Assembly: GCA_009746045.1 (NCBI GenBank)
Contig: RPFO01000132.1
Span: forward strand, 1,320,590 to 1,384,589
Direction of reading: 5' to 3'
Length of the DNA stretch: 64,000 nucleotides
DNA from: Mesostigma viride
Lineage: Eukaryota; Streptophyta; Mesostigmatophyceae; Mesostigmatales; Mesostigmataceae
The translations under genes and the position numbers were made by a program. Of this stretch, positions 3,512-63,480 are shown piece after piece. Each line of letters opens with the position of its first letter. Within the stretch, counting starts at the first letter, position 1. Below the pieces are notes generated by a model. The model saw only the letters and a program-made list of their open reading frames with translations. It did no database searches and was not told where the DNA came from.

Positions 3512-6500
3512 TCATTTCGACTCCATCGACTGGGCAATCAGTAGAGTTTCCTTCTGTATTTCCTGCAGCTGCTTCAGGATGAACATACGCTTCGGATTGC
3601 CCTTGGACTGCTCCACGTCCTTCATCATCATGTCCACCAGCTTGAAGAAGTAAGAGTCCTTTGGGTTCACAAACCATTGTCGATTTTTGTCCTCCTGCGC
3701 TCGTGGGGCCACGCAACGGACGCATTCGTGTACGCCAACCGCGTGGAAGTGGGAACAGCAACCGATGACACAAGTGAAACTATCGATTAGCGCGGCAGGG
3801 GATAAGCAACGGACGGTGAGCACGGGGCTGAGCACGTAATATGAACAAGGGAAGGAAACCAAAGGGAGGGACATCGAGAGGGAAATGGTGCCGGCATTGT
3901 ACAGAAGGGACCGTGAAGATCAGACACTGCTGCAGACTTACGGAGGCCTTTCGTAACGCACAGCAATAGGACGTGCACATAGCTAGCTCCAAAAGCCAGG
4001 CTGGCAATGGAAAAGTTTGATAAGGTGGTTACGCAGCATTGCATAAAACGTCAGAGGTGTGAATCATGTGAACACACCCTGCAGCGCGCGTATCCCTCCA
4101 TCCCGGGACCAACTCGCACCTGCAATTACCATAAGTGGCCTGAGATCCCATGTGACTGGCCTGCTAACCAATTGAAACTGTCATTCCTTCATGAATGCGC
4201 TCCACAGGCGGGTCTCCACATCCTCCACAGCTGTAAAGAGGTGTGTCTAACAGACTCACTGCCGCCAGTAAACGATTGTCCCCTGACCCTCTGGGCAGCA
4301 CACTGATGATGGCAATTTCTCTCATATCCATGAGGCTTTCAAATCTGTCTAAATCATGTAATAAATACGTTACATTATCTGTCAAACATATTTACTATAT
4401 ATAGCTACCATACCCGGAAGGTGATGGCACAGTGGAGTACCGCGAAGGTGCTTATTGAATGATGAGCCAGAACAAACGGCTGGCTGATTCAAGTGCTGGC
4501 CGCGGATAGTGGGTGACTTTATTTTCGCACAACATCTGCAGGCGCTCCCATAGCCAACAGCTCCCACACTACCACCGCCTCCCACCGTAAACACATTTTG
4601 TGCCAGGGCTAGGCCCTGACACAACTGGTCAACCCCCCACCTCCGATACACCTCGTTCCACACCCACCCACGGACCCACCAAACACATTTTCACTAGCTC
4701 GTGCACCCATGCACCGCGTACAGCCGTACAGGTGGCACACCACCCACCCACCCACCCACCCACTAAATACATCAGTAGCGCGTAGGTTTGTGAACGTAAT
4801 CCCCACATCCACAAGTAGCTTGCCACCCACCACGTAGATCTAAAACACACATGTGTCGTGCCTTGGCCGCGCACCACATAGACCGACAAGTTACTGCAGA
4901 CAGCTGTCATGCCCTAGCCACCCGCCACATAGTTCTACCACACACACCTGCACTAGTCCCTCCCAACGCACCACGTAGACCTACAGCACACAGGTGACAG
5001 GTGGCGTTCCAACCCACCACGTAGACCTACAGCACACAGGTGACAGGTGGCGTTCCAACCCACAACGTAGACCTACAGCACACAGGTGACAGGTGGCGTT
5101 CCAACCCACCACGTAGATCTTCTGCCGCTCCTGCTCACTGGGCGCGCGCAGCAGCGCGTTCAGCAGCTGGATCTCCGGCCGTAGCGTCTTCTCCTTCTCC
5201 TGCATCGTGATGCGCAGGATGGGCTCGATGCGGGAGACCACGTCCTGGTTGCCCTCCTTGCGCGCCTGCACAGCAGGCAGCAGCAGCCAGCAGATGCAGG
5301 TGGTGGTCGGTAGCAGTAGAGAGTAGGGGCGGACATAACGCGGGCGGTGGCAGGTAGCAGTAGAGAGTAGAGGCGGACAGAACGCGGGCGGTGGCAGGTG
5401 GCAGTAGAGAGTAGAGGCGGACAGAACGCGGGCGGTGGCAGGTGGCAGTAGAGAGTAGAGGCGGACTGAACGCGGGCGGTGACAGGCCGCAGCAAGCCGG
5501 AGCCGATAGGTGGCAGCCAGCAGCGCAAGCAGATGGGCGATGGCAAGCACTCAGTGGTTTGCTGTCATGGATGCAAGCGGGGGTCAAAGGTTCCGAGACA
5601 TCAAGGAGACATGCCCATCATGGCACACATGCATCATGACCACCGCTCATCATGGCACACATGCATCATGACCACCGCCCATCATGGCATACATGCGTCA
5701 TGACCACCGCCCATCATGGCACACATGCGTCATGACCACACCCCACCATGGCATGCATGCATCATGACCACCGCTCATCAAGGCACACACATGCGTCATG
5801 ACCACACCCCATCACTCCCCATCATGGCACACATGCATCATGACCACCGTCCATCATGGCGCCATGACCACCGCCCATCATGACACGACTCAAGGGCCAC
5901 AGACGAGCGGGCAATCACAGTGCTAGTATGTGCTGGACTGGCACGGATGAGGGCACGCATGGGGGTACGCATGTGGGCGCGCACAACAAGGGCAAGAGGC
6001 ATTGACCTCCCCAGGCACACCCCTGTGAAGGGCGCGTGCTCCGTGCGTGCCTGCTTGGTGTGCCAGCGGAAGACATTCCTTTGTGGGCTGTGGGAGACGC
6101 TTGCAAACTGCCAACGTGCCTGAGAGAAGGTCATGTGCCTCTCATGTGGTCATGGGATCTGCACGCTGTCACGACCATGCATGCGACCACGCCTGTCCAA
6201 TCCTCACACAGCCTCACGCCCTCACATCACAGCAGCCAAGCACAGGGCTGCCAAAGCACAGGGCTGCCAAAGCACAGGGCTGCCAAGCACAGGGGTGCCA
6301 TGCAGCTGTTGCAGGCGAGGATTCTTGCGTCTATTCTATCACGTAGGATGTTCAGTAAGACCACCGCTGCTAACTGGATGCCATGGTGCGGACAACAGGG
6401 CAGCAACCATTGGCGCAAATTTGGGGGGCGTGGGGGTTCGGATCATGGAATTCATGTTACGCCGTTGAATGTTTCTCACATGCGTATGATTGGTCAGAAA

Positions 6501-7267: not shown

Positions 7268-7987
7268 TTTGGTGGTAAAGAAAGGCCGTTTCGTCCACTT
7301 GTGTCAAGGTTTGTGTCAAGAGACAGTTGGCGCAGCAACCAGCCTCGTGCTAATGATTGAGCCAACGTTTGAAGGAGCTGCACAAATGTAGGATTACTGC
7401 TGGCTTTGCCGTGCACCCATCTCTATCGCGCTGATTAGGGCAACGGTAGATCCAACTTATCGCACCCGGTGCAAGTGAGAGGCACCTAATACCTATACAC
7501 TGCATGTTTCTGTGAGCCGAATAACCCGTGTGCCTATCCGAATAGCCCAAAGTGCCGTCCCAACAGTGAGTAATATCGCCGTAAGATGCAAGCTCTCGAA
7601 TCGCCGCGCCGGGAAGGCCTGGAAAAAGTCCGATCACACCGGTGGCAGGTGGCAGGTGGCAGTATGCCAGGTGGCAGGTGGAACGGAAGCAGGTCCAAGA
7701 GGCAGCCATTTTTTATCGTGGTAGCTCAGGGTAGCTGTGTATCCTTTAGTACAAGGCTCAGAAGCGATGCAGAAAATGAGCAGTTGAGCAGTTTGTTGCT
7801 GGGTTGGGCGATGGTTAAGGTACTGGCTAGCGGGAATGCAGCCGAATGGGCTCTCAACTCATTGCATGTCTCATTAACGCAGCATACTTTCGTCGTGCAG
7901 CTGTAATTTATGTGCTCGAAAAGTTGCACCGTCGAGAAAAAAGAAGCCCCTTTTAATTTCTAATTCATGCGTTGTTAGCATCTAAGC
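7268..7987. promoter_or_regulatory. Divergent intergenic region shared by two host genes
   Basis: These 720 bp separate the start codon of the plastid-protein gene (minus) from the start codon of RPAP1 (plus). They must hold both 5' UTRs and promoters. A short aggtggc repeat lies at about 7625-7690. No convincing TATA box was found. Regulatory function is inferred from position only. Confidence 0.5.
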
Positions 7988-10900
7988 ATGCAAAGAGCGA
8001 GGCTTGCGTCGACCGAGGAAGAGCTTTTGCAGCTTCAAAGTCAGTTTCTTTCTGGGAAGGACACGCCAGCTGCCACGTTATTGCATCACAAAGCTCCTGC
8101 AGGTAATGAGCAACACTCTGCGGTGATGTATGCTGGTAACTCAAGAAAGCCAACCGTGTCCCCGTGCTGACGACATGTGCTGCTTCATACTGCATATGTC
8201 CGTTTGCTGCCTCTTGTGCATAGGAAAAGCTGCTGTGCCGACTCCTACAAGGGATCCGCGGCCGCCTTTGGACTCGGGCAAGGCGCCTTCCGCCACAAAT
8301 GCTGGCAAAGAAACGCCTGCAGCTAACGCGGCACTAGACAGTCGCAAGCCTGGGCTCATCGACAACCCTCTTATTGGAGAGATTGTTGAGAAGTCGCCGC
8401 AAGCGGCGGATGTGCCGATCGTCGCCCCCGTCGCGGAAGTGTCGATTGCGTTCCCTGTGGCACAGCATCGCTCCATCTCGAAGGTGAGAGGCGCTTGAGC
8501 ACTACCCGAGTGCCAAACACCAAGCTCTTGGGTCGGTCTGAAAAGTGTGCGCTTCCTGTACTGTGCACATTCTCACGGTGCGGCAGCTGTTTCTTCTATG
8601 CTGTTTATTCTGTGCCTGTCACGGCCTGGCCTGAGATACAGTCATGCATGACCCATACAAATGTCTCGGGGGCTGCGTCTCGTTATTCACGGATAACAAG
8701 CAATCGCACTGTTCGCTGCCTATCCCTCGCAAGCCCCCGCTCGTGTCTCCCCGCGCCGTTGTTGGGTGTGGCAGACACCGCCGCCGCATGTACGGGACCG
8801 CATGCACACCCTGGAATGAATGCACCGCTTGCATCTGTCACAGTTGGCGAACTGTCGTCTCCCTTGCGTGGTTGAAACACTGATCGGGGTGGTGCGCCTG
8901 GACCCAGAGAGGGCAGCTTGTGTTCCTCCGGGGTTGTTACTCTGGCAGTCCTTTGCTTTGAGGGCTCCCAGACGCAGGCTGTCTGTAAGGATATTAATAG
9001 ATTATGAATAAATTAGTATATGGTTGCATCCCCCGGGCGGGTGGGTCACACGGGACACGGGCCAGTGGCCCACACAAGTCCCACACAAGCCAGGAGACTT
9101 TGCTTAAAGGCAGGAGGCGGAAGGAAGCCAGAAGACTTGTCGTCTCACGCAAGTCTCCTGGCTTTCTTAGGACGTGCCACGTGGCAGGCATGTGCGTTAA
9201 CCACAAGATTCCGGGCACCCCGCTGGCCACTGTGAGCATGCAACGTGCCCGGTGCCACCAATTAGGCGTAGCATGGCTGGCAGGCACGCAACGACCCATC
9301 TGCCTGATCTCCTGGGACATGTGGCGTGCACCTGCTTCCCTGCAGCTTGAGTGGTTCAACCGTCCTGCACCCCCTGCTGCGTGCGGTGGAACCGTGCTGA
9401 CTGCTGATCCCCCTGCTGCGTGCTGATTGCGGCCGGCGATTGGTGCTTGGATCTGACACTTCTTGCAGTTCAAGCAGCGCAGGCAGCAGGAGGCGGCGGA
9501 GGCAGCGGATGCAGGGGGGCGTGAAACAGTGCGGCAAGGGGCGATGTGCGAACCAGCAAATCACCTACCAACGTTGGACATCCGAGCGGGTGCTATGGGT
9601 GATGGCAATGCGACCCCCCTGATGGGCGACTCAGGTGTGTTTCCTTGCCGTCCACCGTCGGTGCGGGATGTGGTTGGGATGCCTGCCCCGCGCGTGGTGG
9701 CGAGGGATGTGGTGCCACCCAGGCCACAAGTGGATGTTGCCGGCATGCTGGCGGATCATGAGGTTGCCGACATGCTGGCGGATCCTGCGCCCTCCCTGCC
9801 CACTTCAACGCCCGAGAGCCAGATGGCGGACATCCACGCATCCAACCTGGCCGCAGTGTGCGCGATGACCCGCGAGGAGGTGGAGGGGGAGCTGGAGGAC
9901 TTGCGGGCGCGGTTCCCCCCATCGGCGCTCGAGATGTTGCGGCAGCGCGGAGCACGAAAGCTGGGCGTGGAAACAGTCCCTCTGCTTGCCCAACCTGGCA
10001 CGCTTCCAGGCCAAACAGGGAGGGGCGCACAACTTGTCGAACCAGCGCGGGCCACAACACCTGACCAACCTGGCGCAAAAGCGGTCCAATCGGCGGTGGG
10101 TATGGCCAACGCAAACGGTGTGCCTGCCCGCGCGGCGTCTACAGTCGATGCAACTCACGGCAAGGCGTCGCTGGGTGCTGGCGGACCAGAAAGGGATGGC
10201 CAAGCGGGGGATGCGGCGGTCGCTAACTCTGGCGCTGGCTCCCAAGCGCAGGAGGCCGGGAACCCTTTCTGGCGGCTGGCAGCAGGGGAGGCCAGCGGAC
10301 AGGCGACGTGGGATGGGGTGGCGGGGTTGCCCGAGGGCACGGGCAACCGGTGGCCTGTGCATGATGCCAGCAGTGGTCCTGGCAGCGTATGCAGTGCCGG
10401 TGCTGAAGCTGCTGCGCTGCCCCCGCATCCGCCCCCTTCATCTCCGACCACGCTCCCTGCAACACAGGCGGGGGATGGCCAGGTGGCGGGCGCGCAGGTG
10501 GCTGTCCCTCCAGGTGGCACTGCGGTCAAGGGAGGATCAGTGGCGGGCGTTGCAGGAAGATGTCCAGAGGCGGGCGCTGCAGCCGCCCCGAGTGAGGTGG
10601 TCAGGGGATGGGACCCGGCGCGCATCCGCTTCAACATGCAAGGGTGGCCGATGCGGGTGTTCGCGGAGGAGGATGAGGGGGATGGGGAGGGGGCAGATGC
10701 CAGCACTGCGACGGCCTTGCCCGCCCCCACCAGCGTGGTGGAGCGGGACCCGCTGCGTGCCGGCACCGCCAGCGAGGAGCTCGGGTACAGCTGGCGCGAG
10801 CTGGTGGCGCTCGCGCGCAGCACGGTGGGTGGCGAGTCATGTAGTGTTCAGAGTATGGTGTATGTGTGTGTAGCTGTATAGGGAGTGTACTGTTATATTT

Positions 10901-19900: not shown

Positions 19901-22900
19901 GGTAGTAGTATGTGAGCAAATGGATGGCTCCCACCTTGGTCCATGGTGTCATGTGTGATGGCATTCACTGTGGTGACGGCACCAGCAGATCAGGTGCTAT
20001 CAAGTAGACGCGGTGGTATTAAAGGAATACTTGCATTCACATGTAGTTGCGATGGCATCTGAGGAATGCTTGCGTCCGCGTGGTTCGCACAGACGCTGTG
20101 GTATTAAGGAGTATTTGCGTCCGCGTGGTTCGCACAGGATGGATGGGGAGTTACTGCCTGCGTTGGGCTGGTGGGAGCCTCCTGCAGATGCGGCCATCGG
20201 TGGGGCTTCTCTTGCTGCCATGCGTGCGATTTTCTTTGCCACGCAGATAGTAATGACTAGCAATAGTAATGACTAGCAATGTCTAACGCTCGTTTTAGCT
20301 GCTGCGCTTGTCCGGCATCCGTACCCTCCATGACTGCCGGTCACCCGTGGCTTGTGACAGCTGGCGCACTCCCGACGGGTGTGGCCCCTCGCCCCCACCG
20401 ACAAGTTCCTCTTCCTCTGCCAGGCCTTCCTGTCGCCCTCTGCCGCCTTCCTGCAACCAGGTAGGTAGGGGGCGGAATTGCGACAGTTCTCTACGCTTGC
20501 ATTTGGTGGTGCATGGCCGGCGTTAAGAATGCTTGGCAGCCTGCGGGATGAGGTGGATGTGGAACGAGGGACCACGGGCCAGTGCAGCAACCATTCAAGC
20601 TAATGCCGTTTGGAGTAGGACCACTAGCTGGGGCTGTGATGCAGGGAGGAGCCGCTCAAGCAAGCAAGGGTGAGAGAAAGGTGGGAGGAGGAATTGCTAA
20701 AACAAGCAAGGGTGAGAGAACGGGGGGAGGAGGAATTGCTCAAACAAGCACGTGTGAGAGAACGGGGGGAGGAGGAATTGCTCAAACAAGCACGGGTGAG
20801 AGAACGGGGGAGGAGGAATTGCTCAAACAAGCAAGGGTGAGAGAACGGGGGGAGGAGGCATTGCTCAAACAAGCACGGGTGAGAGAACGGGGGGAGGAGG
20901 AATTGCTCAAACAAGCAAGGGTGAGAGAACGGGGGGAGGAGGCATTGCTCAAACAAGCACGGGTGAGAGAACGGGGGAGGAGGAATTGCTCAAACAAGCA
21001 CGTGTGAGAGAACGGGGGGAGGAGGAATTGCTCAAACAAGCACGGGTGAGAGAACTGGGGGAGGAGGCATTGCTCAAACAAGCACGGGTGAGAGAACGGG
21101 GGGAGGAGGCATTGCTCAAACAAGCAAGGGTGAGAGAACGGGGGAGGAGGCATTGCTCAAACAAGCACGGGTGAGAGAACGGGGGGAGGAGGAATTGCTC
21201 AAACAAGCACGGGTGAGAGAACGGGGGGAGGAGGAATTGCTCAAACAAGCAAGGGTGAGAGAACGGGGGGAGGAGGCATTGCTCAAACAAGCACGGGTGA
21301 GAGAACGGGGGAGGAGGAATTGCTCAAACAAGCACGTGTGAGAGAACGGGGGGAGGAGGAATTGCTCAAACAAGCACGGGTGAGAGAACTGGGGGAGGAG
21401 GCATTGCTCAAACAAGCACGGGTGAGAGAACGGGGGGAGGAGGCATTGCTCAAACAAGCAAGGGTGAGAGAACGGGGGGAGGAGGCATTGCTCAAACAAG
21501 CACGGGTGAGAGAACGGGGGGAGGAGGAATTGCTCAAACAAGCACGTGTGAGAGAACGGGGGGAGGAGGCATTGCTCAAACGAAGGGTGAGAGAACGGGG
21601 GGAGAGCGCACAAAGTAGAACCGTGCGCCACACTCCACGGTAAGCTGCCACACTCTGGGGTGATGTGCCACAGAGTGGAACGAGTCGTCGCAGCGCAGGT
21701 GGTCACGCAGGTGCAGGTGCACGAGCGAGCCTATTCATTTGAGTTCTGACACCTGTCACGCTTGCGGACCTTGGCAGGCTGACCATACAGGCTGCACCCT
21801 GTTTGTGGGAGTTTCCCCCCCAGGCTTCCGATGGCACTGCCGAGCAGTGCCGAGATGAACCACATAGCCGCATGCCCACCATAGCTTTGCACAGCCACCA
21901 CTCTAGCTCTACCGTCCAGCAACAGGCAGCTAGAGCGGACCTCCCGAGTGATCAGCTGTTGGGAGGTATCAGCTGGGCGCCGGACGAGCAGCATCCGCAG
22001 TGTCGTCACGGTTGCTACAATGTGGCTGCGTGTACAAGCCATTTTGGCCTTTGTCCAGGTAACCCATGTATCTTTCACCACACCTGCATGTGCGCATGCC
22101 TGCGTCGGCCCAGGTGTGCGTACCTGGATTGGCCCACGTGTGCGTGCCGTGTAATGTGACGCCGGCCCCCCTATTTGCGTGCGCCACCGCTTGCCGCCCA
22201 GACGTCAAGTGGCTACTGGCCGCCCTGCAGGACGCCTACTGTGGACGCCTCAGCAGTGCACCCCGCGACGGTGGCTGCGCAGGGGACGGAAACCGGCAGT
22301 CATCGACCAGGCGGGAGAGCAGTGGCGAGCTGGCGGGGCCAGCAGCAGCATCTGCCAACGCATCAGCGGACACAAACACAGCACCGGCAGCAGTGGTAGA
22401 GGCGGTGGCAGCCAGCGTGCCGCTGACCATTCCTGACAGCGCGTCATCAGAGGCGTTGGGCGTCAAGCTGGTGGGTGCGGCGGGTGACGCCTGCTTGTCT
22501 GTTCATCCATTAGCGGGCATGCATGGCGCCACCACTGGGGATGCCACTGGCATGCATTATTTAATGAATTGTCACGTAGACTGCGTCACGTGGGTGCCAA
22601 AAAAGGAACCTTCAATCCTTATACTCAATGAGGAGGGAGGGCGCCCTAGCTTCTCTCACTACCCTAACTGGGTAGGCCACAAAGCGCTCTCTCCGCATCA
22701 TGGTGCGGGCGCAACTGTGGGTGCAACAAAGCTTCGGCATAGCAAAAGCGTGGCGGATGCAGTAAGGCTGCCCCATGGTCCAGAGCCCACAGATAGGCTG
22801 GGAACGCATTTAGAGGCGCCGGAGATGGAGAATATAAAGGCCTCTCCCCATGAGTGTTTTTAGGGGCATACCCAGGGTTCACCCACAACCCCCATATTCA

Positions 22901-25779: not shown

Positions 25780-26090
25780 TCTCTTGTCACCCGACACCGC
25801 CGCCTCCTCTTGCCGGCCACCTTGCCCGCACAGACCAGGTGATTATAACTCGTAACAGGGTTACATGAGCATAAGTCCTCAGTCACAGTCGAGTGGGATG
25901 GGATGGGATGGGATGGGATGGGATGGGATGGGATGGGATGGGATGGGATGGGATGGGATGGGATGGGATGGGATGGGATGGGATGGGATGGGATGGGATG
26001 GGATGGGATGGGATGGGATGGGATGGGATGGGATGGGATGGGATGGGATGGGATGGGTTTGGATGGATGGGGCTAGCTATATTCTGATCA
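25780..26090. mobile_element. LINE A fragments containing a GGGAT pentanucleotide array
   Basis: At 25808-25845 the plus strand reads LAGHLARTDQV, a piece of the LINE A C-terminus. At 25866-25890 (gagcataagtcctcagt) and 26057-26085 (ggatggatggggctagctat) the minus-strand LINE A 3' UTR is recognisable. Between them the UTR segment that reads catgggatggaatggatgg in other copies has become a pure GGGAT array. Confidence 0.7.
25895..26057. repeat. GGGAT pentanucleotide array, about 33 copies
   Basis: Uninterrupted gggat units. Open on the plus strand as a DGMGW repeat and on the minus strand as SHPIP, which is a property of the repeat and not coding evidence. Confidence 0.97.
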
Positions 26091-33495: not shown

Positions 33496-34020
33496 CCTCG
33501 ATCCGCCGTCGCAGCATGTACAGCTCCAGCGGCAGACGCTTGACCTCCGCGAGGAGGCCGAGCTCGCCAAGCGCAGCCTTAACGTCATCGTCAAGAACTT
33601 CGACATGGCGGAAGGTGAGAATTCCGAGAAGGTAATTGCATGTGCGTTTGAGAGCAAAATCCTTGATCGCATGGGCCTTCTTGGTGAGATCAAGCTGGTC
33701 GCCCACCGCCTTCCCCGCGTGCGGGGTAAGGCAGGGGCGCCCCCGCTTCTTCTCATCTGTAAGAGCCCATCAGACAAGCTTTCAATTCTCAGACGCTGCA
33801 AGCGGCTCGAGAAGACTCCCTTCACCTTGGACGACGACTTGACCCTGGCGCAGCAACAACGGCAACGGGAGCTATGGCCGACCTACCTCCAGCTCCGGCA
33901 GACCGCGGCAGGGAAGCCGGTGTACTGCATGGAAGGGGGCGACCATCTACGTCTGCCACAAGCCCTGGCAAGCGACCCCCGGCCGCGGCCCCAGCACCTC
34001 CAGATGCCCCGTGTAGAATA
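33496..34020 (+). pseudogene. LINE ORF1-type protein, coiled coil and RRM-like region
   Basis: In one frame the sequence reads LREEAELAKRSLNVIVKNFD, then APPLLLICKSPSDKLSILRR and LDDDLTLAQQQRQRELWPTY, followed by GKPVY. This order (coiled coil, NviV core, Dk.sIL, dDLT..Qq..r) is that of L1-type ORF1 RNA-binding proteins. Upstream, 33270-33420 reads a helical ITAQLRDIDQRLKDNAIAI segment interrupted by stops. ORF1p would coat element RNA in ribonucleoprotein particles. The long methionine-start frame begins at 33605, but homology extends upstream of it. The C-terminal YW..GD block seen in sister copies reads YCMEGGD here. Confidence 0.65.
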
Positions 34021-34433
34021 GTCAGCAGGCCTAGCCACCGTGGCCTTGTACATGTACGCCTATACTACAGGCCCTATACCAGATGATGCCTTAGCCTTAT
34101 TTAATCATGTGCATGTGTGCCTATGATGTGCCACACACCAGATGATGCCTAGCTTTATTTAATTATGCTGTGCCCATGCAGGGAGTTACTCTCTGCTGAG
34201 AAGCCACGCCCTTAGGCTAGCCTTTGTCTAGCCATGATGATGATCTTCCCCCCTATGTCTGCGCCTTTAGGTAGGTGCCTGAATACATAGTGGTGTGCAG
34301 GTGCACTTTGTGCACCCAGAGCAGGTGTAGTTTACACCCTACCCTTGCAGGAAGTAGCCCAGGGTGTATAAAAAGCCATACACCCCTTCTCAGGGATATG
34401 TGCTACATATACTCCCAACGGAGTTCATATGTT

Positions 34434-56265: not shown

Positions 56266-56375
56266 GCTGAGGGGATTCATAAGTGTTTGCTCAATTTCAT
56301 AAATTTTACTCAATTTTTCCACATGTGATTAAATCCTTATATTTGTCAATAAAGCAGGGGTCATCCAGCCTTCAG

Positions 56376-57560
56376 ACCATGAAAATAGACCACCCACAAA
56401 AATTGGGCTCATTCTGAGCTCAAATGGTGACATGTGACAGCATACATGTGCAGTTTTTCGTCATTTTCCCCCTTTTCTTACATGAAACAAATATGAATAG
56501 TGAACAAATGAACTCATATCAGGCTGGATTCTTGCAGGCAGCATTTATACCATGAAAATAGACCACCCACAAAAATTGGGCTCATTCTGAGCTCAAATGG
56601 TGACATGTGACAGCATACATGTGCAGTTTTTCGTCATTTTCCCCCTTTTCTTACATGAAACAAATATGAACAGTGGACAAATGAACTCATATCAGGCTGG
56701 GTTCTTGCAGGCAGCATCTAGACCATGAAAATAGACCACCCACAAAAATTGGGCTCATTCTGAGCTCAAATGGTGACATTTGACCGCATACATGTGCAGT
56801 TTTTCGTCATTTTCCCCCTTTTCTTACATGAAACAAATATGAATAGTGAACAAATGAACTCATATCAGGCTGGATTCTTGCAGGCAGCATCTAGACCATG
56901 AAAATAGACCACCCACAAAAATTGGGCTCATTCTGAGCTCAAATGGTGACATGTGACAGCATACATGTGCAGTTTTTCGTCATTTTCCCCCTTTTCTTAC
57001 ATGAAACAAATATGAACAGTGAACAAATGAACTCATATCAGGCTGGGTTCTTGCAGGCAGCATCTAGACCATGAAAATAGACCACCCACAAAAATTGGGC
57101 TCATTCTGAGCTCAAATGGTGACATGTGACAGCATACATGTGCAGTTTTTCGTCATTTTCCCCCTTTTCTTACATGAAACAAATATGAACAGTGAACAAA
57201 TGAACTCATTTCAGGCTGGATTCTTGCAGGCAGCATCTAGACCATAAAAATAGACCACCCACAAAAATTGGGCTCATTCTGAGCTCAAATGGTGACACGT
57301 GACAGCATACATGTGCAGTTTTTCGTCATTTTCTCGGTTATCTTACATGAAACAAATATGAATATTGAACAAATGAACTCAGATCAGGCTGGAAACTTGT
57401 AAGCAGCATGTAGACCATCAAAATAGACTGTTTACAGCTCAAAAGGTGACAAATGAAAGGAAAACAATGCAGTTTGATGCCATTGCCACTGTTCTCTTGA
57501 ATAAAACATTTTTGTGCGACCAAATGAAATTCATGGGCATTCATTGACAATCCTCGAGGT
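56376..57560 (+). repeat. 173-bp satellite, left arm, seven units
   Basis: Units start with accatgaaaatagaccaccc at 56376, 56549, 56722, 56895, 57068, 57241 and 57414: exactly 173 bp apart. The first six are almost identical; the seventh (nearest the core) is strongly diverged. Confidence 0.95.
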
Positions 57561-57597
57561 TCGTGCAGTCTGAATTTCGTACAACGGTAGTATGAAG

Positions 57598-58792
57598 TTC
57601 AGACTGGACGGGCAGTCTCGGGTCTTCGATGAATGAATTCCAGTGAATGCAAGATGAATTGCCGAGACCGACCTGTTAGCAAGGAAATTCGTCCTTTTCG
57701 TATGTTCAGACTGGACGGGCAGTCTCGGGGCTTCGATGAGTGAATTCCAGTGAATGCAAGATGAATTACCGAGACCGACCTGTTAGCAAGGAAATTCAAG
57801 TCCTTTTCGTATGTTCAGACTGGACGGGCAGTCTCGGGGCTTCGATGAGTGAATTCCAGTGAATGCAAGATGAATTGCCGAGACCGACCTGTTAGCAAGG
57901 AAATTCAAGTCCTTTTCGTATGTTCAGACTGGACGGGCAGTCTCGGGGCTTCGATGAGTGAATTCCAGTGAATGCAAGATGAATTGCCGAGACCGACCTG
58001 TTAGCAAGGAAATTCAAGTCCTTTTCGTATGTTCAGACTGGACGGGCAGTCTCGGGGCTTCGATGAGTGAATTCCAGTGAATGCAAGATGAATTGCCGAG
58101 ACCGACCTGTTAGCAAGGAAATTCAAGTCCTTTTCGTATGTTCAGACTGGACGGGCAGTCTCGGGGCTTCGATGAGTGAATTCCAGTGAATGCAAGATGA
58201 ATTGCCGAGACCGACCTGTTAGCAAGGAAATTCAAGTCCTTTTCGTATGTTCAGACTGGACGGGCAGTCTCGGGTCTTCGATGAGTGAATTCCAGTGAAT
58301 GCAAGATGAATTGCCGAGACCGACCTGTTAGCAAGGAAATTCAAGTCCTTTTCGTATGTTCAGACTGGACGGGCAGTCTCGGGTCTTCGATGAGTGAATT
58401 CCAGTGAATGCAAGATGAATTGCCGAGACCGACCTGTTAGCAAGGAAATTCAAGTCCTTTTCGTATGTTCAGACTGGACGGGCAGTCTCGGGGCTTCGAT
58501 GAGTGAATTCCAGTGAATGCAAGATGAATTGCCGAGACCGACCTGTTAGCAAGGAAATTCGTCCTTTTCGTATGTTCAGACTGGACGGGCAGTCTCGGGG
58601 CTTGGATGAGTGAATTCCAGTGAATGCAAGATGAATTGCCGAGACCGACCTGTTAGCAAGGAAATTCAAGTCCTTTTCGTATGTTCAGACTGGACGGGCA
58701 GTCTCGGGGCTTCGATGAGTGAATTCCAGTGAATGCAAGATGAATTGCCGAGACCGACCTGTTAGCAAGGAAATTCAAGTCCTTTTCGTATG
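57598..58792. repeat. 109-bp tandem array, eleven units
   Basis: Units start with ttcagactggacgggcagtc at 57598, 57705, 57814, 57923, 58032, 58141, 58250, 58359, 58468, 58575 and 58684. Nine intervals or so are 109 bp; two units lack two bases (aattcgtcc for aattcaagtcc). Units are nearly identical, so the array is young or homogenised. Within each unit cagtctcgg and ccgagacc form inverted segments. Confidence 0.96.
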
Positions 58793-58847
58793 TGCGCGAA
58801 ACATGAGGGGTGGGAAAACGGAATAAGCACAGAAAACGGAATCAGCA

Positions 58848-59069
58848 ATGGCGGAGAAGACGGCGATGGCACTTTTCAAATCGCATGTCATGGACGTGCA
58901 CGAGCCGGAATGGTTGGTGGGGACCCCGGTATGCAAGATATTTTCAGGCCCAAACTCAGGGGAGAAGCGGTATCATGCCCATGTGACGGCGTTTAATAAG
59001 GAGCACAACATGGTCCATGTGCTCTACACAGACGGGGACGATGAAATAGTAGGGTTAGATGAGGTGTGA
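58848..59069 (+). CDS. Small Tudor-like domain protein inside the foldback element
   Basis: The 73-residue frame reads WLVGTPVCKIFSG ... KRYHAHVTAFNKEHNMVHVL YTDGDDEIVGLDEV. The pattern VG..V.K.F.g......a.V..f......v.V.Y.DGD.E....dE is that of Tudor/Agenet-type chromatin-reader folds found, for example, in plant PTM and related proteins. The whole protein is one such domain with a short N-terminal extension; a complete small fold is plausible. It starts about 55 bp after the 109-bp array, which could serve as its promoter region. It may be a captured exon of a host gene. It is not known whether it is expressed. Confidence 0.55.
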   Translation: MAEKTAMALFKSHVMDVHEPEWLVGTPVCKIFSGPNSGEKRYHAHVTAFNKEHNMVHVLYTDGDDEIVGLDEV

Positions 59070-59349
59070 GCTGCGCTTTGCGCATGCCCAGGTGTAGAGT
59101 TACCCAATCTGCCACCCGACTCGACTGCGCGAGGTTAGGCGGAGATAGTAGAGTGCGTTCGGATCGAAGCAGGTCGCACACCGGGGCACGGCTAGCAAGC
59201 AAGCGAAGGCGACCCCGCGCCACAAGCGCCGCCCTCCCCACATAATTGATGACTCAGACTCAGACTAGCCTTATTGATGTGAGTTTAAATTTTTCAGTTT
59301 TAGATCCCAGCGTGCAACATACAGGGATGAAAAGCACTTTAACATGTAT

Positions 59350-59410
59350 TATTGTGCTCTGCGACTCCCCAATAGGAGCGCGTGTTTTATCAATGAATTA
59401 TTTAATTAAT
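59350..59410. repeat. Retroposon tail fragment with hairpin
   Basis: gtgctctgcgactccccaat aggagcgcg followed by an ATT-rich tail matches the 3' hairpin tails at 48631-48672 and 49000-49022. It is a remnant of a SINE/LINE 3' end inside the foldback core. Confidence 0.55.
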
Positions 59411-59526
59411 AATTTTTTCAGTTGGAAATGACGTCAAAACTGGGCTGAGTTTAAATGTTACTTATATATATATACTGTCCTGAGCCAGTAGACATCGCGC
59501 CTTACGCGGATCCGCGCTTTTTACGT

Positions 59527-59735
59527 TTCAGTTCAGACAACTGGTCTCAGACATGCACGGGGCTCGGCGTGCCATGCTTCCACGTTTGTTGTCTCTTTTC
59601 AGACAACTGGTCTCAGACATGCACGGGGCTCGGCGTGCCATGCTGCCACGTTTGTTGTCTCTTTTCAGACAACTGGTCTCAGACATGCACGGGGCTCAGC
59701 GTGCCAATGCTTCAGTCCACGTTTGTTGTCTCTTT
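59527..59735. repeat. 66-bp tandem triplicate
   Basis: Units start cagacaactggtctcagaca at 59534, 59600 and 59666; the third is diverged and runs into the right-arm satellite. Confidence 0.9.
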
Positions 59736-60282
59736 TCATATACTGTCACATGTCACCATTTGAGCTCAGATCGAATGAGCCCAATTTTTGTAGGTGGTCT
59801 AGTATTATGGTTTAAATGTTGCTTGCAAGAATCCAGCTTGATATGAGTTCATTTGGTCATGATTCCTATTTGTTTCATGTAAGAAACCGGTGCAAATGGC
59901 GTAAAACTGCATATTCATACTGTCACATGTCACCATTTGAGCTCATAATGAGCCCAATTTTTGTAGGTGGTGTAGTATTATGGTTTAAATGTAGCTTGCA
60001 AGAATCCAGCTGGATATGAGTTCATTGGTTCATGATTCCTATTTGTTTCATGTAAGAAACCGGTGCAAATGACAAAAGGTTGCATATTTATACTGTCACA
60101 TGTCACCATTTGAGCTCATAATGAGCCCAATTTTTGTAGGTGGTCTAGTATTATGGTTTAAATGTAGCTTGCAAGAATCCAGCTCGATATGAGCTCATTT
60201 GGTCATGATTCCTATTTATTTCGTGTAAGAAAACGATGAAAATGGCGTAAAACTGCATATTTATACTGTCACATGTCACCAT
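59735..60282 (-). repeat. 173-bp satellite, right arm, inner units
   Basis: Reverse-oriented units, with gtcaccatttgagctca words at 59756, 59933, 60106 and a broken one at 60279 where the LINE inserted. These inner units are diverged from the outer ones (ctagtattatggtttaaatg in place of ctattttcatggtctagatg). Confidence 0.92.
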
Positions 60283-62266
60283 GACCGCTGGTTGGCCCAC
60301 AATGTTTCCTTGACCGGTGGGGCTCGCGCCCCCCCCCGCCGCTGCACCCCGAGACGGCCGCCCGCCTCGGGGTCGCCGGACCCCCGCCGCCACCGGCGCC
60401 CCCCTCCTCGGCCGCGGACTACCAAGTCCCCGCCTTGAAGGAGGGCTGCCTTGCCACTGACGACGTCGTCCACCCCTTCACTTTGGAGGAATTGGACGGC
60501 GCCCTTGCTCGTCTGCGGTACGATGCAGCGGTCGGTGCCGACCACCTTTCTGCTGAGCTGCTGAAGACCCCTGATCTGGCGGTTAGGGATCTTCTGCTGG
60601 CGTTCTGCAACCGTGTCCTGCTCTCTGACGAGCCTCCGCCTGCTGAGTGGCAGACGGCCATCCGCGTCATGCTGTACAAGAAGGGCTCTGCTGCTGACCC
60701 CGGCAACTACCGGGGTGTCTGCCTCCAGAGCGCCGCGCTGAAGGTCTTCATGCGCATGATGCTACACAGGCTCCGCGCCGCGCTGGACCCACACCTGGGT
60801 GAGTCTCAGATGGGTTTCCGTAGTGGTCGTAACACTGTCATGGCTGTGTTTGTCGCGCGCCGGTTGATGGAGGAGGTGCGTCGACTTCCCCCTGACAGTT
60901 TGCCGCTGGTCTTCATTTTTGTTGACTATATCAAGGCCTTTGACACGGTTCTCTGGGAGGCTCTTTGGGCCATCCTAGCTCTGGATCGGGTACCACCTGC
61001 GTTTATTGCTGCCATTCGCCGACTGTATGAGGGCTCACAGGCCGTAGTGCGGACTGCGGAGGGCACCACTCCACCATTCCCCCTTCACCACGGGGTGTGG
61101 CAAGGTTGTGTCCTGTCCCCATACCTGTTCATTATTGTCGTGGATCACGTCATGCGCCGGGCACGTGCGCGCTTTACTGCTCTTAAGGGGTTCGAGCCAG
61201 GCTTGGACATCCTTAACGTGAAAGAGCACGGCGGGGTTAGACCGGGGTACCGCCTTGCCGACCTGATTTATGCGGATGATACCACCCTCATCGAGCGCCC
61301 CGAGCACATTCAGACCTGGCTGGACTGCCTGGGCCTGGAGGCGCGGGCGGTGGGGTTGGAGATTAGTGTCAAGACTGAGGCGATGGTGATAGGGGCCTCC
61401 AGTAAACCACCGCTGCCGCGCCTGCTCGACGGGACGGAGGTCCCGTTCCGCGACCGCTTCAAGCTGTTGGGGAGCTGGCTTCCTGACACCGACGACGATG
61501 TGGACACCCGCATCGCCCTCGCCTGGGCCAAGCTCCGTTCGCTCACACCTTACTGGCGCTCGAAGGGCCTGGACGGGCACCGCAAACGCATGCTCTTCAA
61601 GGTCCTCGTCCTCACGGTGCTCACGTATGGCGCCGAGGCGTGGACCCTCCCACCCAAACTGGCAGCTCGGCTCGACGGCACAGTTTACAGGATGCTCCGG
61701 CAGGTCCTTAACGTAGGTTTTTCCGAGCGTCCGTCATCAGAGTCTTTGTATCATGGCATGCCTCGTGTTTCGGACGAGATTAGGCAGCGTAGGATAGCAT
61801 TTGTAGGACACCTTGCCCGCACTAGCCAGGTCGACACCACCCTTGGTCTGGCCGGCCCCCAGCGGCTTGGCCAGCCAGGGCGGCATATTCTGACCTGGCC
61901 TGGCCCCGCGGACATTCCCAAAAAGGTAGGGAAACCTGTCACCAACTACGTTCAGATGTTGCTGGACGACCTAGTGGTCCCAGCCCAGTTTGAGCACCGC
62001 ATACACTCTCTCTCCCGTCTTTGGACTGTCATGCAAGACAAGACGCGGTGGAAGAAGATTGTCAAGGCGCACACGCCCGACCCTGTGGGCAAGCCACCTC
62101 CCCCCAAGCGGAGGAGGCGTTTTGATGAGTAGTGTAGTTAGGATTTTCTAGATAGCCTAGCGTTAGTATAGTTCGATTACGCGGCTTCCTCCACCCCATC
62201 CATCATGGAATATGTGCTACATGACCTCCCCACGGAGGCATGTTATAATTTAATTTAATTTAATTT
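60283..62266 (+). mobile_element. LINE B, young insertion in the satellite, with target duplication
   Basis: The 10-bp word atgtcaccat lies immediately before the element (60273-60282) and immediately after its tail (about 62269-62278). The satellite unit is otherwise continuous across the insertion. The copy is 5'-truncated, keeps one long open frame, and ends in a hairpin CCTCC-CCAC-GGAGG at 62225-62238 and an AATTT tail (62246-62266). Confidence 0.88.
60435..62132 (+). CDS. LINE B reverse transcriptase, open frame, N-terminally truncated
   Basis: The frame is open from 60285, after a stop in satellite sequence, to the stop at 62130-62132; the first 50 codons are a Pro/Ala-rich linker. RT motifs are in order: GNYRGVCLQS, QMGFRSGRNT, the Asp of motif A in FVDYIKAFDTVLW (about 60920), motif B GVWQGCVLSPYLF (about 61095), motif C YADD (about 61268), motif D LEISVKTEAMV, motif E FKLLGSWL, then the thumb LTYGAEAWTL and a GHLARTSQV region. 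The C-terminus is basic (KPPPPKRRRRF). All catalytic residues of the polymerase seem present. The endonuclease domain is absent because of 5' truncation, so it is unlikely to move on its own. The only methionine-independent start in the frame is a TTG at 60435. Confidence 0.9.
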   Translation: MKEGCLATDDVVHPFTLEELDGALARLRYDAAVGADHLSAELLKTPDLAVRDLLLAFCNRVLLSDEPPPAEWQTAIRVMLYKKGSAADPGNYRGVCLQSAALKVFMRMMLHRLRAALDPHLGESQMGFRSGRNTVMAVFVARRLMEEVRRLPPDSLPLVFIFVDYIKAFDTVLWEALWAILALDRVPPAFIAAIRRLYEGSQAVVRTAEGTTPPFPLHHGVWQGCVLSPYLFIIVVDHVMRRARARFTALKGFEPGLDILNVKEHGGVRPGYRLADLIYADDTTLIERPEHIQTWLDCLGLEARAVGLEISVKTEAMVIGASSKPPLPRLLDGTEVPFRDRFKLLGSWLPDTDDDVDTRIALAWAKLRSLTPYWRSKGLDGHRKRMLFKVLVLTVLTYGAEAWTLPPKLAARLDGTVYRMLRQVLNVGFSERPSSESLYHGMPRVSDEIRQRRIAFVGHLARTSQVDTTLGLAGPQRLGQPGRHILTWPGPADIPKKVGKPVTNYVQMLLDDLVVPAQFEHRIHSLSRLWTVMQDKTRWKKIVKAHTPDPVGKPPPPKRRRRFDE

Positions 62267-62267
62267 T

Positions 62268-63400
62268 AATGTCACCATTTGAGCTCATAATGAGCCCAAT
62301 TTTTGTAGGTGGTGTAGTATTATGGTTTAAATGTTGCTTGCAAGAATCCTGGCAGCTCGATATGAGTTCATTTGGTCATGATTCCTATTTGTTTCATGTA
62401 AGAAACCGGTGCAAATGACGAAAAGCTGCATATTTACACTGTCACATGTCACCATTTGAGCTCAGAATGAGCCCAATTTTTGTGGGTGGTCTATTTTCAT
62501 GGTCTAGATGCTGCTTGCAAGAATCCAGCCTGAAATGAGTTCATTTGTTCACTATTCATATTTGTTTCATGTAAGAAAAGGGGGAAAATGACGAAAAACT
62601 GCACATGTATGCTGTCACATGTCACCATTTGAGCTCATAATGAGCCCAATTTTTGTGGGTGGTCTATTTTCATGGTATAAATGCTGCCTGCAAGAATCCA
62701 GCCTGATATGAGTTCATTTGTTCACTATTCATATTTGTTTCATGTAAGAAAAGGGGGAAAATGACGAAAAACTGCACATGTATGCTGTCACATGTCACCA
62801 TTTGAGCTCAGAATGAGCCCAATTTTTGTGGGTGGTCTATTTTCATGGTCTAGATGCTGCCTGCAAGAATCCAGCCTGAAATGAGTTCATTTGTCCACTA
62901 TTCATATTTGTTTCATGTAAGAAAAGGGGGAAAATGACGAAAAACTGCACATGTATGCTGTCACATGTCACCATTTGAGCTCAGAATGAGCCCAATTTTT
63001 GTGGGTGGTCTATTTTCATGGTCTACATGCTGCCTGCAAGAATCCAGCCTGAAATGAGTTCATTTGTCCACTATTCATATTTGTTTCATGTAAGAAAAGG
63101 GGGAAAATGACGAAAAACTGCACATGTATGCTGTCACATGTCACCATTTGAGCTCAGAATGAGCCCAATTTTTGTGGGTGGTCTATTTTCATGGTCTAGA
63201 TGCTGCCTGCAAGAATCCAGCCTGAAATGAGTTCATTTGTCCACTATTCATATTTGTTTCATGTAAGTAAAGGGGGGAAATGACGAAAAACTGCACATGT
63301 ATGCTGTCACATGTCACCATTTGAGCTCAGAATGAGCCCAATTTTCGTGGGTGGTGTATTTTCATGGTCTACATGCTGCCTGCAACAGTCCAGCTTTAGG
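62268..63400 (-). repeat. 173-bp satellite, right arm, outer units
   Basis: Words ccatttgagctca recur at 62275, 62452, 62626, 62798, 62971, 63144 and 63317, 173 bp apart except the first interval (177 bp, small insertion). The outer units match the left-arm outer units almost exactly in reverse complement. Confidence 0.95.
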
Positions 63401-63480
63401 TACCCTCAGATCTGAAAGATTTTTTTTTTACTCATTTGAAGACTTGTGAAATTGAGCAAACACCTATGAATCCCCTCGCT

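Follow-up and report, generated by a model that had tools for sequence, protein, structure and literature searches.

A foldback DNA transposon of Mesostigma viride with arms of 173-bp tandem repeats and sister copies that carry a DUF7869 gene

We analysed a 64,000-nucleotide stretch of the Mesostigma viride genome (contig RPFO01000132.1, positions 1,320,590 to 1,384,589; here called the window) and found in it a 7,209-bp copy of a mobile element, gamma, with ends at 56269 and 63477. Gamma has moved recently and duplicates 3 bp at its target site, and longer sister copies carry a gene for a protein with the domain DUF7869. We are confident, short of certainty, that gamma is a non-autonomous terminal inverted repeat (TIR) transposon that is moved in trans, most likely by DUF7869 acting as a DDD transposase. 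It is best described as a foldback derivative of what is probably a new transposase superfamily.

Ends, target sites and recent movement of gamma

The window copy is bounded by a TIR and a duplicated triplet. The left TIR (31 bp, 56269..56299, plus strand) begins 5'-GAGGGG, the right TIR (31 bp, 63447..63477, minus strand) differs from it at a single position, and the triplet GCT, read directly from the sequence, stands at 56266..56268 and again at 63478..63480. An earlier note on this DNA, made from the letters alone, had recognised the 31-bp repeat correctly and had counted two differences where there is one. Inside the ends lie two arrays, called in the window with Tandem Repeats Finder (TRF), that have a period of 173 bp and opposite orientations, as that note had described: about 6.1 units on the left (56366..57428, minus strand) and about 6.5 units on the right (62269..63394, plus strand). 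The longest pairing between the arms joins 56366-57391 to 62353-63378, with 96% complementarity over 1,026 nt.

Ends of this type occur throughout the genome and mostly in convergent pairs. We searched the 439.9 Mb assembly with the end pattern, allowing up to three mismatches, and obtained 293 matches (149 + 144), with none (0 + 0) for the reversed pattern used as control; we estimate that there are about 150 gamma elements. Eighty of the first 100 ends could be joined into 40 pairs of convergent neighbours, with a median spacing of 7.5 kb (range 4.9-32.6 kb), under a pairing limit of 35 kb at which the longest pairs may not be single elements. The other 20 ends were unpaired, three of them in one nested cluster on contig C2, and divergent neighbours within 20 kb occurred only once among these 100.

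Gamma makes exact 3-bp target-site duplications. All 35 copies for which both flanks were read had an identical triplet on the two sides: 13 from 21 stretches (the window and 20 fetched copies, numbered with L), two from five extended stretches, and 20 chosen from the 40 pairs; the count leaves out L009, L010, L012, L016, L020 and L022, whose stretches contain no right end. In the 20 chosen pairs the longest match between the flanks was exactly 3 in every case, and cross pairings of left and right flanks agreed in 4 of 380. The gct flanks described in the earlier note are thus a true target-site duplication. Among the 35 copies there were 26 different triplets, with G rare in first place (3/35) and C rare in last place (2/35).

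Empty sites and copies at other loci, both proposed as checks in the earlier note, were found. Many copies with different flanks are present, and joined flanks matched a sequence across the junction in 5 of 13 cases, four of which we inspected base by base. Two of these alignments keep the exact triplet (L019 with L027, 95%; L027 with window 34093-34253, 82%), and in two others one base of the triplet is changed (L018 with window 33904-33614, 87%; L026 with L022, 88%). Part of the window itself, 33614-34253, is a repeat in whose relatives L018 and L027 sit, and so provides natural empty sites. The idea of a non-autonomous DNA transposon, foldback in form and with arms of tandem repeats, is borne out by the 293 ends, the exact duplications and the empty sites.

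Movement of gamma is very recent. L017 is identical to L027 over 6,836 bp, and L025 to L026 over 7,046 bp, and in both cases the flanks and duplications differ, placing long identical copies at different sites.

A variant of the left-type end, with A at position 14, is found at both ends of 5 of the 40 pairs (on C25, C335, C446, C1043 and C1391), and four of these five (all except C1391) belong to the 20 chosen pairs, all of which have exact duplications. This suggests that a copy of the left end has taken the place of the right end in such elements.

The DUF7869 gene and its recurrence in other families

Long gamma copies encode a candidate transposase. L028, with a length of 9,397 bp and the duplication CGG/CGG, is the kind of relative that the earlier note had recommended looking for, having the same ends and carrying on its plus strand the gene for a DUF7869 protein (E 2.3e-14), a candidate transposase. 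The Pfam profile of the domain (PF25273) scores 53.9 bits in the long gamma copy against a curated cut-off of 26, and the open reading frame (ORF) is a 100% match to the Mesostigma gene prediction P0001. In L028 a Tudor-like domain follows in a separate frame (E 4.8e-4, 20.3 bits, below its cut-off), and the minus strand has frames for a weakly PHD-like protein (E 0.1) and a polyglutamine (polyQ) protein; the exon structure of the long-copy genes is partly known. Between L028 and L043, the DUF7869 gene has 0.025 nonsynonymous (dN) and 0.075 synonymous (dS) substitutions per site over 457 codons, indicating coding constraint. The window copy lacks this gene.

DUF7869 is probably a DDD transposase, judging from residues that do not vary. 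In an alignment of five families, four of which are 28-36% identical to the gamma protein, D210, D303, D342 and D344 (P0001 numbering) are invariant, with 92 residues between D210 and D303 and 40 between D303 and D344, and there are a conserved C..C pair and the motifs DGG..N.N and GHTH.D.D. This D...D...D pattern looks like that of a DDD transposase; the two motifs also recall those of ISAzo13.

In two more families, alpha and epsilon, DUF7869 again occurs together with terminal inverted repeats and 3-bp duplications. We scored 150 of 275 candidate DUF7869 matches in the genome; all of the matches listed were above the cut-off, and they fell into at least five classes when grouped by score and ORF length. 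There were 0 matches in 14 control genomes. One alpha copy is 11,210 bp long with a perfect 29-bp TIR and the duplication TCT/TCT, and one epsilon copy is 8,907 bp long with a perfect 32-bp TIR and CGA/CGA. Epsilon has 463 ends and exact 3-bp duplications in 11 of 11 copies (the one above and ten further pairs; cross pairings agreed in 2/90). Alpha has 532 ends and exact duplications in 8 of 11 copies (7 of the 10 further pairs).

DUF7869 genes lie close to the ends of their own family. Among the matches listed, exact ends were nearby for 6 of 6 gamma matches (both ends in four), 13 of 13 in the 51-bit class of epsilon (both ends in 11), and 13 of 15 in the alpha class of 62.5 bits or more (both ends in eight; contigs up to C937). 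Three epsilon-like matches of 55 bits had no exact end among the ends listed. Separately, epsilon-like ends with one mismatch (CCATTAAG) were mostly unpaired among the ends listed and probably belong to another family whose other end is more different.

We propose that a protein from the longer copies would recognise the gamma ends, which have the same 31-bp sequence, in trans, and that a 3-bp staggered cut at insertion would give rise to 3-bp duplications without a fixed site sequence. DUF7869 would most likely be the transposase, with a DDD catalytic role that we infer, and movement would presumably be by cut and paste. The Tudor-like and (weakly) PHD-like domains of the long copies may read chromatin.

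An accessory role for DUF7869, for example in DNA binding, with catalysis by the minus-strand PHD-like/polyQ protein or by another gene, seems to us improbable. Such minus-strand frames are present in the long gamma copy and at the matching place in epsilon, and the DDD fold of DUF7869 is a prediction. However, the minus-strand proteins give just weak PHD-like or unrelated sub-threshold matches, and it is the DUF7869 protein that has the invariant aspartates at their fixed spacing. The frames themselves (L028 2059-4240 and L034 148-2645, both minus strand) diverge from the DUF7869 gene, and this suggests that a two-gene layout is conserved between gamma and epsilon.

Several results weigh against the main reading, in which DUF7869 moves gamma. 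An excision footprint, which was not searched for, was not seen. AlphaFold models of DUF7869 have low confidence (mean predicted local distance difference test, pLDDT, 33.5 and 41.0), so that an RNase H fold is a candidate only. Protein searches with DUF7869 returned only the matching Mesostigma prediction (two of the searches scored the best 8,000 candidates), and no relatives were found in the viral or bacterial/archaeal contigs scanned. Three of the 11 alpha copies lack matching triplets, and the alpha cross pairings agreed in 6 of 90. In one of these three, L122, the right flank is identical to that at L036 9852-9891 over 40 bases and the left flank is not; one of the two copies is therefore chimeric, through assembly or through recombination between near-identical copies. 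This shared flank touches one of the three misses, and the other two have no explanation. Two of the 15 alpha-class DUF7869 matches (on C2 and C361) have no exact end among the ends listed. We did not find the 173-bp array in alpha, and the array is thus not essential to the superfamily. A motif shared by the TIR and the 173-bp unit was considered and rejected as not significant, with 118 and 293 of 500 shuffles reaching its score. The case is weakest on what DUF7869 does biochemically and on whether the 173-bp unit has a function, two points that are predicted from sequence.

Relation of gamma to known transposons

Gamma has the features of a TIR DNA transposon, namely inverted repeats in convergent pairs and a duplication of fixed length (3 bp), combined with foldback architecture, namely long inverted arms of tandem repeats. 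Scans of gamma, alpha and epsilon ORFs (E up to 1 or 10; gamma accessory ORFs to E 1 only; the DUF7869 families beta and delta left out) found no Pfam transposase family, and no genome search for CACTA transposases was made.

We think it very unlikely that gamma is a CACTA/EnSpm element with extreme subterminal repeats, served by a conventional CACTA transposase encoded at another locus and with the DUF7869 gene as a passenger. The likeness is considerable: the relevant parts of the published accounts describe 3-bp duplications, subterminal repeats and two genes in CACTA elements (PMC4158355, PMC8978399), all of which gamma shares, and a captured satellite array near the 3' end of some Chenopodium CACTA elements (PMC8978399). 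However, every end that we read was GAGGGG, GGGTGG or CCCTACC, never CACTA, and the ORFs scanned contained no CACTA domain. The arrays of gamma are moreover paired and inverted, and DUF7869 is found in three families whose ends differ in sequence. The earlier note had offered a CACTA-like element carried to an extreme as one possibility, and this fails on both the terminal motif and the transposase domain.

A Mutator-type foldback element like Tetris of Drosophila virilis, independent of the DUF7869 copies, is hardly credible. According to the relevant part of its description (PMC4079207), Tetris has arms of tandem units of about 220 bp, varies in unit number and in its middle, and is non-autonomous, and in these respects it has the same architecture as gamma. 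That part also states that Tetris was placed with Mutator for its 8-10 bp duplications, that only three complete copies exist and that an autonomous copy was never found. In contrast, gamma has exactly 3 bp in 35 of 35 copies, a length that excludes such an assignment, as well as 293 ends and long copies with a candidate transposase; no MULE domain was found in the ORFs scanned. Host satellite blocks that flank unique DNA by chance can be dismissed, since the satellite-like unit length and the varying arrays are outweighed by the pairing of the ends, the unvarying 3-bp duplication and the empty sites, which refute this explanation.

Two further superfamilies have 3-bp duplications. PIF/Harbinger elements duplicate TNA or ANT, as summarised in part of one study (PMC12477816), and are excluded by the varied triplets of gamma. 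Zator and ISAzo13 share the 3-bp length with gamma in the relevant part of another (PMC10045372), and the DUF7869 ORFs gave no ISAzo13-type Pfam match to E 10, a weak test at such distance in which the HMMER filters drop most weak matches.

In the open-access literature, judged by titles and the openings of abstracts, no such algal element has been described, and we found no paper naming DUF7869 there. The statement in the earlier note that there is no algal counterpart stands within those bounds, with the qualification that the architecture itself is known from Tetris. For the Tudor-like domain, the Ectocarpus element Gypsy-10_Ec32 offers a parallel: in the part of the account that covers it, its authors call it, to their knowledge, the first reported transposable element with a Tudor domain (PMC12477816). 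That element is a retrotransposon, whereas gamma belongs to the DNA transposons and its Tudor-like match falls below the Pfam cut-off.

Tandem arrays, copy classes and the nested insertion

The 173-bp repeat appears, by sequence comparison, to predate the foldback arms. Near the right end of epsilon there are 2.7 units with a period of 173, in the same orientation relative to that end as in gamma, and this array scores 142 against a gamma unit (300 dinucleotide shuffles: mean 29, maximum 46). On the left side of epsilon no 173-bp array was found, and the first 1.2 kb scores 37 and 31. The simplest history would be that the ancestor shared by gamma and epsilon had a right-hand array, as a long-standing component of the right subterminal region, and that gamma gained an inverted copy on its left.

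The arrays differ in length between copies and share units between arms. In 15 complete gamma copies, counting matches of 150 nt or more to a single gamma unit gave 4-9 units in the left arm and 4-14 in the right. The 246 units comprise 85 sequences, several of which are identical in both arms and in many copies. This suggests copying between the arms, and such sharing is expected from exchange between arms together with recent spread. Unit number may change by unequal exchange or slippage, and the arrays may act as multiple transposase-binding sites or as nucleosome-spaced sites.

A new array is arising inside the DUF7869 gene. In L022 (7800-9986), a 66-bp (22-codon) piece of the gene is present in at least 33 tandem copies with the frame kept open, and the repeated piece is bounded by 9-bp words that differ once. 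L043, a 94% copy, has the start of the same 66-bp amplification. L022 thus shows the birth of an array within an element.

Apart from L009, the 20 fetched gamma copies fall into three classes. Class A consists of L019, L020 and the window copy, with a 109-bp array and a Tudor remnant. Class B carries the genes and includes L028, L010, L012, L013, L016, L022 and L023, with L011 as a shortened form; its three complete long copies are 9,397, 9,558 and 9,983 bp. Class C (L014, L015, L017, L018, L021, L024-L027) has a different core, with an ORF in L021, L024 and L027 that on visual inspection is similar to the beginning of the class B minus-strand gene; five of the nine copies, compared with L028, match about 85% at that place. 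More extreme still is L009, where sequence from the right half is also found, inverted, on the left.

The core of the window copy is common to L019 and L020, and is therefore not unique as the earlier note had supposed. It contains a central array of 11 units of 109 bp (57597..58793, plus strand), a 73-aa ORF (58848..59069, plus strand) with a Tudor-like match (PTM/DIR17 Tudor, E 6.7e-5; its 23 bits fall short of the curated cut-off, 27.2), a 66-bp array of 3.1 copies (59532..59738, plus strand) and a further stretch of the right-hand 173-bp array that lies inward and is more divergent (59739..60282, plus strand; 3.1 units). The last is also right-hand oriented, and its longest matches to the left arm are 83-85% identical. 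The 109-bp array, with matches of 67-70% to L028 over 144-169 nt, is a divergent relative of the 120-bp central array in the long copies. DNA around the 73-aa ORF is 82-89% identical to L028, and the ORF is a vestige of the C-terminal, Tudor-like reading frame found in the long copies. Matches to L028 are 93-98% in the arms, 93% at L028 element positions 6214-6255 and 82% at 7920-8368, and are weak (66-67%) in the central array. By this pattern the window copy derives by deletion from a sister of L028 and not from L028 itself.

The coding core reported in the earlier note is a separate insertion. A piece of a retrotransposon without long terminal repeats (non-LTR) occupies 60283..62268 (plus strand), starting in the middle of the right array. 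It has a reverse transcriptase (RT) ORF (60435-62132, plus strand; RVT_1, E 1e-23) and a tail of repeated AATTT, and it is flanked by the same ten bases (60273..60282 and 62269-62278). At this site the array of the sister copy L019 (5,499 bp), which has the other parts of the window copy, is uninterrupted and matches at 97% over 295 nt once the piece is removed. The domain, target duplication and 3' tail are those of a non-LTR element; no endonuclease match was found in the piece, and it is presumably truncated at its 5' end. We rejected the RT ORF as a gene of gamma itself on the basis of its own 10-bp duplication and its absence from L019.

Elsewhere in the window, TRF called a 42-bp tandem array (20654-21604, 22.8 copies, with higher-order periods of 167 and 209) and a TGGGA microsatellite (25894-26071, 35.8 copies).

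Based on the comparison of families, we lean, with less assurance than for gamma itself, towards the view that DUF7869 is the catalytic domain of an undescribed eukaryotic DDD superfamily, characterised by 3-bp duplications, whose elements repeatedly generate and maintain internal satellite arrays. The arrays covered are the old 173-bp subterminal array, its foldback doubling in one family, the central minisatellites, and the one formed from the transposase gene. A domain without an assigned function would thereby be linked to DNA transposition in three families of one genome, and gamma would be supplied with a likely autonomous partner having the same ends, which Tetris does not have. The conserved 173-bp array, the units shared between arms and the new array now forming would together allow a direct test, in a basal streptophyte alga, of the idea that satellite DNA arises from transposons.

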